Below, in pieces: positions 14,516 to 30,491 of a stretch of 64,000 nucleotides of DNA. Under the pieces are notes generated by a model. It searched no databases. It was not told where the DNA came from and was given only the letters and a program-made list of their open reading frames with translations. The DNA is from Cellulomonas sp. JH27-2. GTDB taxonomy: Bacteria > Actinomycetota > Actinomycetes > Actinomycetales > Cellulomonadaceae. The stretch is from NCBI RefSeq assembly GCF_014837175.1, contig NZ_JACYFR010000003.1:558001-622000 (forward strand). The letters run 5' to 3'. Both the position numbers and the translations under genes were made by a program. Every line of letters starts with the position of its first letter. Position 1 is the stretch's first letter.

Positions 14516-18094
<3,579 letters not shown>

Positions 18095-28367: not shown

Positions 28368-29843
28368 ATGCCTACGACTGCCTCGACCCAGGTTGACGCC
28401 GCCTCCACGCCGGCCGCCAAGTCCCGCAAGGTTCCGCGCGTCGTCGTCCTCGGCGGCGGCACGGTCGGGCTGTACACGGCCCGACGTCTGCGCAAGCGTC
28501 TCGGCAAGCGCGAGGCGGCCATCGTCGTCGTCGACCCGCGCCCGTACATGACGTACGCGCCCTTCCTGCCCGAGGCCGCGGCCGGCTCGATCGACGCCCG
28601 CAACGTGGTCGCCCCGCACCGCCGCGCGCTCAAGGGCGTCGACGTGCTGCAGGGCAAGGTCAGCAACATCAAGCACGCCGAGCGCACGGTCGAGATCACG
28701 CCCGAGGAGGGCGAGCCGTACTGGATCACGTACGACCACCTCGTCGTCGGCCTCGGTTCCGTGGCGCGCACGCTGCCCATCCCGGGCCTGGCGGAGCAGG
28801 CGATCGGCTTCAAGAACGTCGAAGAGGCCATCGCGGTCCGCAACCACATCCTCAACCGGATCGACATCGCGTCGTCCACGTGGGACCCGGAGCTGCGCAA
28901 GCGCATGCTGACGTTCGTCTTCGTGGGCGGCGGGTTCGCCGGCATCGAGGCGCTCGCCGAGCTCGAGGACATCGCGCGCTACACCGTGCGCCACTACAAG
29001 CAGATCGAGCAGAACGAGCTCCGGTTCGTGCTGGTCGAGGGCAGCCCCCGCATCCTCCCCGAGGTCAGCGAGGAGCTGGGCGGCTACACGCTCGAGCAGC
29101 TGCGCAAGCGCAACATCGAGATCTACCTGTCCACGTTCCTGTCGAGCTGCGTCGACGGCCACGTCGTCCTGTCGAACAAGACGGAGTTCGACGCCGAGAC
29201 CATCGTCTGGACCGCGGGCGTCAAGGCCAACCCGGTGCTGCAGCACTCGGACCTGCCGCTGGACCAGCTGGGCCGCGTCACGGTCAACGCCGCGCTCCAG
29301 GTGATCGACGCCGAGGGCACCGTCGTCCCGGACGCCTACGCCGCCGGTGACTGCGCCGCCGTCCCGGACCTGTACAACCCCGGCAAGTTCTGCCCGCCGA
29401 ACGCCCAGCACGCGCTGCGTGAGGGCAACCACCTGGGCGACAACCTGGCGCGCGTCCTGCGCTCGGCCGAGGTCACCGAGTACAAGCACAAGAACATCGG
29501 CGCCGTCGCCTCGCTCGGCATGTACAAGGGCGTCGCGCAGATGTTCGGCAAGATCAAGGTCCGCGGCTTCCCGGCCTGGGTCCTGCACCGCTCGTACCAC
29601 GTGTTCGCGATGCCGACCGTGAACCGCAAGCTGCGCATCATGGCCGGCTGGACGGGCTCGATCCTGCTGCGTCGCGAGGTGGTCCCGCTGGGTTCGCTGC
29701 ACGACCCGCGCGCCGAGTTCCGCGACGCGTCCGTGCCGCCCAAGCCCAAGCAGGCCGACCCGGCGCTGCCCCCGGCCAAGGAGGAGGCGGGCTCGCCCGC
29801 CAAGGCGGAGTCCGACGCGAAGAAGCCCGCCACCGCCCAGTGA
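28368..29843 (+). CDS. ndh: Type II NADH dehydrogenase (NDH-2)
   Basis: A 491-residue single-subunit flavoprotein that oxidises NADH and reduces quinone at the inner face of the membrane without pumping protons. The FAD-binding motif is VVVLGGGTVGLYTARRL (about residue 25), the NADH-binding motif is FVFVGGGFAGIEALAEL (about residue 185), and FAD contact is in AYAAGDCAAVPD. The ~45-residue C-terminal tail is Lys/Pro/Ala-rich, longer than usual and probably disordered. Its stop overlaps the DUF1990 gene as GTGA. Confidence 0.92.
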   Translation: MPTTASTQVDAASTPAAKSRKVPRVVVLGGGTVGLYTARRLRKRLGKREAAIVVVDPRPYMTYAPFLPEAAAGSIDARNVVAPHRRALKGVDVLQGKVSNIKHAERTVEITPEEGEPYWITYDHLVVGLGSVARTLPIPGLAEQAIGFKNVEEAIAVRNHILNRIDIASSTWDPELRKRMLTFVFVGGGFAGIEALAELEDIARYTVRHYKQIEQNELRFVLVEGSPRILPEVSEELGGYTLEQLRKRNIEIYLSTFLSSCVDGHVVLSNKTEFDAETIVWTAGVKANPVLQHSDLPLDQLGRVTVNAALQVIDAEGTVVPDAYAAGDCAAVPDLYNPGKFCPPNAQHALREGNHLGDNLARVLRSAEVTEYKHKNIGAVASLGMYKGVAQMFGKIKVRGFPAWVLHRSYHVFAMPTVNRKLRIMAGWTGSILLRREVVPLGSLHDPRAEFRDASVPPKPKQADPALPPAKEEAGSPAKAESDAKKPATAQ

Positions 29844-30379
29844 GCCACTTCACGCTCCGGCCCACGCCGGATGCCGTGCTGCGACGAGCCCGTCTCTCGA
29901 CCGAGGTCGAGCAGGCGGGCTCGTTCGCGTCCCCGCCCGCGGGTGCGCACGAGCTGTGGCGGGCTGCCGAGTTCGAGGGGTCGTTCGCGCGCGCGCGCGA
30001 CGGGCTGTTCCGCTGGGACGTGCAGCGCGGCGCGGGGCTCAAGGTCCTGGCCGACGGTCCGGTGCGGGTCGGCGGCACGGTTGTCGTCGGGCTGCACCTC
30101 GGGCCGGTCTGGGCGCTCGCGCCCAGCCGCGTGATCGCGGTGGTTGACGACGACGAGGCCGCCGGGTTCACCTACGCCACGCTGCCCGGCCACCCGGAGC
30201 TCGGGGTCGAGGAGTTCATGCTCACGCGCGTCGGCGACCGCGTGCGCTTCGAGCTCCACGCGGTGAGCACCCAGGCCACGGTTCCGGCGCGGCTCGCGCC
30301 GCCGGTCGCGCGCTGGGTGCAGTCGGTCGTCACGGACCGCTACCTGCGCGCCGCCGCGGACATCGCCGCCGGGCGCTGA
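29840..30379 (+). CDS. DUF1990 family protein
   Basis: A 179-residue conserved bacterial/plant protein of unknown function. GLFRWDVQRGAGLKVLADGPVRVGGTVVV and FTYATLPGHPELGVEEFML are the family landmarks. GTG 29840 overlaps the ndh stop by 4 nt, so the two are co-translated. No signal peptide or membrane segment is evident. A tRNA gene follows 26 nt later on the same strand. Confidence 0.82.
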   Translation: MSHFTLRPTPDAVLRRARLSTEVEQAGSFASPPAGAHELWRAAEFEGSFARARDGLFRWDVQRGAGLKVLADGPVRVGGTVVVGLHLGPVWALAPSRVIAVVDDDEAAGFTYATLPGHPELGVEEFMLTRVGDRVRFELHAVSTQATVPARLAPPVARWVQSVVTDRYLRAAADIAAGR

Positions 30380-30405: not shown

Positions 30406-30479
30406 GCCCCCGTAGCCCAATCGGCAGAGGCAGTCGGCTTAAACCCGACCCAGTGTGGGTTCGAGTCCCACCGGGGGCA
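30406..30479 (+). tRNA. tRNA with UAA anticodon (tRNA-Leu-like, short variable loop)
   Basis: A complete cloverleaf of 74 nt without an encoded CCA. The acceptor stem is GCCCCCG/CGGGGGC, and the D-arm has a 3-bp stem (GCC/GGC) with an 11-nt loop CAATCGGCAGA. The anticodon stem is GTCGG/CCGAC with loop CTTAAAC, giving anticodon TAA (30440-30442). The T-arm is GTGGG/CCCAC with loop TTCGAGT, and the discriminator base is A. The anticodon reads UUA (Leu), and the D-arm and A73 match leucine tRNAs. However, the variable region is only CCAGT (5 nt) instead of the long arm normal for tRNA-Leu. Charging identity is therefore inferred. Confidence 0.88.
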
Positions 30480-30491
30480 CACCGCAGGAGC

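Follow-up and report, generated by a model that had tools for sequence, protein, structure and literature searches.

In textbooks, and in tRNA tools as well, a bacterial tRNA-Leu is defined in part by its long variable arm. What the synthetase looks for appears to lie elsewhere: in Escherichia coli the leucine determinants are A73, the A15-U48 pair, G18G19, A20a and contacts between the D- and T-loops; the arm is unnecessary for leucine identity, and truncated tRNA-Leu is still active (PMC9976931). Human mitochondrial LeuRS charges a tRNA-Leu(UUR) from which the long arm is missing (PMC9976931). Among actinobacteria, mycobacteria have been described with a cluster-encoded tRNALeu(TAG) whose variable loop is short (PMC6582537), and long variable loops have been reported in tRNALeu-2, 3 and 5 of M. 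tuberculosis—which implies that the other tRNALeu of that organism lack them (PMC11541572). In the open-access literature (subscription papers lay outside the search) we found no paper devoted to short bacterial tRNA-Leu, and no aminoacylation or tRNA-seq results for such tRNAs; an earlier description is quite possible.

The window—the whole stretch of 64,000 nucleotides from Cellulomonas sp. JH27-2 that we analyzed, 71.7% GC—contains a single tRNA gene, called by ARAGORN as tRNA-Leu(taa), at 30406-30480 on the + strand. It is very probably the cell's sole tRNA-Leu(UAA), class-I-shaped, charged with leucine by LeuRS, and a replacement for the class II form in reading UUR codons.

Structure of the gene

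The features of the locus are collected in Table 1. The parse accounts for the gene in full, as GCCCCCG-TA-GCC-CAATCGGCAGA-GGC-A-GTCGG-CT TAA AC-CCGAC-CCAGT-GTGGG-TTCGAGT-CCCAC-CGGGGGC-A. All seven pairs of the acceptor stem (GCCCCCG/CGGGGGC) form, followed by U8 and A9; the D-arm is followed by A26; the anticodon stem (GTCGG/CCGAC) carries the loop CTTAAAC, and the T-stem (GTGGG/CCCAC) the loop TTCGAGT. CCA is not gene-encoded. With its 7/5 acceptor/T stems and a variable region within the 4–5 nt of class I tRNAs, the molecule has class I shape; the variable region of class II, a stem-loop of ~10 or more nt, is not found in it. Rfam RF00005 matches 30406-30479 well above its cut-off (58.5 bits versus 29; E 4.7e-10). 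The initial annotation had described a complete cloverleaf, with UAA as its anticodon, A73, 3 bp in the D-stem, 11 nt in the D-loop and a variable region of 5 nt, and ARAGORN, Rfam and the parse bear this description out.

Table 1. Features of the tRNA-Leu(UAA) locus, in window coordinates
Feature	Position	Strand	Evidence
tRNA-Leu(UAA) gene, short (class-I-shaped) variable region	30406..30479	+	ARAGORN; Rfam RF00005, 58.5 bits; pair covariation in relatives
D-arm, 3-bp stem GCC/GGC (30415-30417 with 30429-30431)	30415..30431	+	Two-sided changes at 2/3 pairs in relatives, 100% paired
D-loop CAATCGGCAGA, 11 nt: C13, A14, A15, G18G19, extra A (20a)	30418..30428	+	Parse; layout as in class II tRNA-Leu CAG and GAG of Cellulomonas sp. 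JH27-2
Anticodon TAA (UAA; UUA, plus UUG by wobble)	30440..30442	+	ARAGORN and parse
Variable region CCAGT, 5 nt; final base is U48, partner of A15	30450..30454	+	Parse
Discriminator base A73	30479..30479	+	A73 in all parsed bacterial and phage short Leu(YAA) tRNAs
Upstream gene, 179 aa, no NCBIfam family; stop 26 bases before the tRNA	29840..30379	+	Gene prediction

The pattern specific for this family matches once in the window and not at all in 100 shuffles, and the tRNA strand folds better than shuffles do (z -2.6). A gap-free alignment of 27 related sequences contains 112 two-sided pair changes, with 99.1% of cells paired, a result that none of 500 shuffles came near; compensatory changes occur in every stem of the family, the 3-bp D-stem included. 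The covariation rules out a chance fold, and the intact stems, together with conservation of the family across the phylum, rule out a decayed pseudogene. A motif search at the locus recognized no sigma-70-like promoter or terminator around the gene, although a consensus match is hardly to be expected at 72% GC. Because the tRNA starts so soon after the upstream stop codon, and no consensus promoter was seen, we assume that it would be co-transcribed with the upstream gene or transcribed from a non-consensus promoter.

Leucine tRNAs, LeuRS and the meaning of UUR

In the genome as a whole, 3.73 Mb long and 99.97% complete, there are 45 tRNAs, and ARAGORN, applied to all of them, assigns five to leucine. 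Three are long-armed—CAG (84 nt), GAG (84 nt) and UAG (86 nt)—and two, UAA and CAA, are short, with bodies of only 74 nt. The short tRNA-Leu(CAA) (L038, contig C2, 674519-674592) is 86.5% identical to the UAA tRNA and is its nearest relative in the genome. No class II tRNA-Leu(UAA) or (CAA) occurs in this set of 45, and the two short tRNAs are the only ones that read UUR; since the full set holds no other UAA tRNA, the one in the window is the sole tRNA for UUA. The initial annotation had suggested a ‘second, structurally reduced tRNA-Leu(UAA)’, and had advised a search of the genome for a normal class II counterpart. ‘Reduced’ is apt; ‘second’ is not, for the search, once run, returned the window copy and no class II form, and across the phylum, as described below, the short and long forms are mutually exclusive.

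The UAA anticodon matches a leucine codon (ARAGORN), and the codon columns of Mfd and LeuRS show that the codons it reads mean leucine in this organism. UUR codons are scarce: the window's predicted genes contain 68 TTG and 3 TTA among ~19,000 codons. In Mfd (14516-18094), TTG605 and TTG973 fall in columns that are invariantly Leu (29 and 28 aligned sequences, respectively), and TTG364 falls in a variable one. When relatives are pooled—and it is mainly in relatives that UUA itself was tested, TTA being so rare in the window—TTG and TTA at columns conserved to 80% or more face Leu in 85 of 97 cells, no worse than CTG. In the LeuRS of genomes with the short UAA tRNA, every TTG cell (25/25) and both TTA cells at such conserved columns (>=80%) are Leu.

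The bases that confer leucine identity in E. coli are all present in the UAA tRNA: A73, A14, A15-U48, G18G19 and the extra A in the D-loop. In 30 parsed tRNAs, whose selection did not depend on these bases, A73 and A14 occur without exception, as do AGA in the D-loop and C13 opposite A22; A15-U48 occurs in 28, the other two (L080 and L081) having G15-C48 instead. Among distinct relatives, U48 is found in 34 of 36 and C48 in the same two, both with G15, so that the Levitt pair has changed in a compensatory way. For loci collected by pattern, A14, A15 and U48 were fixed by the pattern itself and so were left uncounted, and A73 was free to vary.

LeuRS would recognize the short tRNA by A73 and by the elbow—A14, A15-U48, G18G19 and the extra A of the 11-nt D-loop—and for none of these elements would it need the long arm. 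The leucine-charged tRNA would then read UUA, and would share UUG with tRNA-Leu(CAA), which is just as short. CUN codons would stay with class II tRNAs, as we checked in Cellulomonas sp. JH27-2. The short scaffold would in this way stand in for class II tRNA-Leu at UUA, UUG or both in much of the Actinomycetota. The initial annotation had allowed that a short arm might be the rule in this family, with normal charging by LeuRS; the former has proved correct, and the latter, along with expression of the tRNA, we infer.

One LeuRS gene scores above the family cut-off in Cellulomonas sp. JH27-2, and one gene is found in 29 of the 30 genomes searched, the thirtieth having no match at the strict cut-off. 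The enzymes are of two kinds, one matching the query over nearly its full length, the other over the core only. We considered whether one kind might be dedicated to the short tRNA and rejected the idea: no link was seen, the full-length kind occurring in 6 of 14 genomes with short UAA and in 6 of 15 without. One genome of the window's order, G008, has a LeuRS that matches over the core only (50% identity, residues 243-708), unlike those of G000, G060, G082 and G133 of the order, a contrast that suggests replacement of its LeuRS gene.

Short forms in bacteria, phages and plasmids

A pattern for short Leu(YAA) matched in 52 of 197 Actinomycetota genomes, and the same pattern reversed, our control, gave only 2 hits; at least one of the short-pattern matches (L082) is not tRNA-like in appearance. 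A pattern for long Leu(YAA), which misses some long variants, was run on the same 197 genomes. For UAA, 39 genomes have the short form, 59 the long, and none both (Fisher p 9e-8); for CAA the figures are 18, 90 and none (Fisher p 6e-6), exclusion being tested among detected forms, and genomes with neither form detected being common (95 for UAA). Both anticodons are short in 6 genomes, short UAA accompanies long CAA in 19, and short CAA accompanies long UAA in 5. Genera with the short form include Mycobacterium, Nocardia, Rhodococcus, Gordonia, Corynebacterium, Bifidobacterium, Streptomyces, Cellulomonas and Geodermatophilus. In the window's own order the short-form pattern matched in 141 of 149 genomes, at least two single hits being due to chance, in genomes that also hold a real one.

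Short CAA with long UAA is found in Streptomyces lincolnensis, where the long UAA is of the bldA type, and in Bifidobacterium stellenboschense; Nocardia australiensis has the reverse swap, short UAA with long CAA. Because L102, L153, G023, G104 and G182 (S. lincolnensis and genomes of one genus) combine a bldA-type long UAA with a short CAA, UUA and UUG are read in them by tRNAs of different shapes. Outside the Actinomycetota the short form is rare: there are 3 real hits among 145 genomes of a deltaproteobacterial MAG's class, and single MAGs labelled Chthonomonadales and Rokuibacteriota carry it too. The deltaproteobacterial and Chthonomonadales MAGs pair short UAA with long CAA. The Rokuibacteriota MAG (L110/G222) has short and long UAA together, the only such genome seen, and contamination or a mobile element could account for its two forms.

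Phages have these tRNAs as well. BLAST found relatives in 148 phage records, many of them already annotated as tRNA-Leu, and in those we fetched—from Streptomyces, Mycobacterium, Gordonia, Erwinia, Pseudomonas, Enterococcus and Lactobacillus phages, and from a cyanophage—the variable regions are short. The hosts of phages with the short form belong to several phyla. In the fetched viral contigs ARAGORN found short forms with UAA (94), CAA (42), UAG (24), GAG (5) and CAG (1) anticodons, counts that are not frequencies, the loci having been chosen by the short UAA/CAA pattern. Since the short form is common in actinobacteria and phages alike, leucine is almost certainly read by it as usual. Some individual loci deserve mention. 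A cluster of 15 tRNAs on a bacterial contig (L194:6870-7127) includes short tRNA-Leu with GAG, CAG, UAA and CAA anticodons, as in phages. On a plasmid of Tsukamurella tyrosinosolvens (L045:4001-5280) the end of an integrase gene directly adjoins a short tRNA-Leu(CAA), an arrangement suggestive of integration at this tRNA. And in Mycobacterium phage MalagasyRose (NC_073465.1, 503-528) the last 26 bases of an annotated tRNA-Pyl, which may be a suppressor tRNA built on a similar body, are identical to those of the window tRNA.

Whether the scaffold derives from a class II or a class I tRNA was judged from pairwise similarity, since a tree of such short molecules would be unreliable, and similarity appears to favor a class I body. 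A class I tRNA might, then, have been rebuilt with a leucine-type D-loop to found a mobile tRNA-Leu lineage that phages and plasmids spread, and that repeatedly displaced class II tRNA-Leu for UUR in the Actinomycetota and, rarely, in other phyla. We offer this history tentatively, and are inclined to doubt it.

Other readings and known systems

Could the tRNA be charged with some other amino acid, and so recode or misread UUA, as the initial annotation had also proposed? Its class I shape would fit, and over alignable bases it is closer to the genome's own class I tRNAs (83.6% for Asn, 84.1% for Thr) than to class II Leu (70-74%). Its nearest relative in the genome is nonetheless the short Leu(CAA), and its leucine identity set is complete, down to the extra D-loop base that Asn, Lys and Thr tRNAs lack. 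It is, moreover, the only UAA tRNA of a genome that uses UUR at conserved Leu positions and has no other tRNA to read UUR as leucine. The proposal is highly improbable. An auxiliary or regulatory second tRNA-Leu(UAA), perhaps phage-derived, working beside a normal class II copy, is equally hard to credit: the scaffold does occur on phages, and beside the integrase gene of the Tsukamurella plasmid, but the class II copy is missing from a nearly complete genome, and the short-form pattern matches almost throughout the order. As for a pseudogene or a non-translational tRNA-like RNA, the want of a recognizable promoter or terminator speaks for it; yet all the stems are intact and covary, and the cell would be left with no tRNA for UUA, and we regard this, too, as very unlikely.

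If, as we favor, the gene specifies a class-I-shaped tRNA-Leu charged by LeuRS, then a form that is ordinary for the window's order goes against the rule by which bacterial tRNA-Leu belongs to class II, and does so with almost no discussion that we could find. UUA or UUG would be read by leucine tRNAs lacking the long arm in many actinobacteria, among them species of Mycobacterium, Corynebacterium and Streptomyces. Such tRNAs would be natural evidence that LeuRS can do without the arm, and they would bear on which tRNAs are recognized by enzymes and toxins that read it.

With bacterial class II tRNA-Leu (UAA/CAA), such as bldA of Streptomyces, the short form has in common the codons read, A73, A14 and A15-U48, the 3-bp D-stem, the 10–11-nt D-loop with its extra A, and the same place in the tRNA set. 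It differs in having 5 nt where class II has a stem-loop, and in having A9, C13 and, mostly, A26 where the class II Leu CAG and GAG of this genome have G9, G13 and G26. It would be a bacterial counterpart of mitochondrial tRNA-Leu(UUR), which reads UUR, is charged by LeuRS without a long arm, and owes its identity mainly to A73 and A14 (PMC9976931). The resemblance is one of mechanism only. The window tRNA differs in being bacterial, with rigid G+C-rich stems and the complete bacterial identity elbow. Phage short tRNA-Leu (of Streptomyces, Mycobacterium, Gordonia, Erwinia and Pseudomonas phages, and cyanophage P-RSM6) share both the scaffold and the signature CAAnnGGCAGAG...CAGTG, with the difference that in phages the scaffold also bears UAG, GAG and CAG anticodons. 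The cluster-encoded tRNALeu(TAG) of the Mycobacterium mucogenicum clade (PMC6582537) is likewise a short-loop tRNA-Leu in an actinobacterium; there it is supernumerary, encoded in a tRNA cluster in addition to a long-loop isoacceptor of the normal type, whereas in Cellulomonas sp. JH27-2 the short form is the only one.
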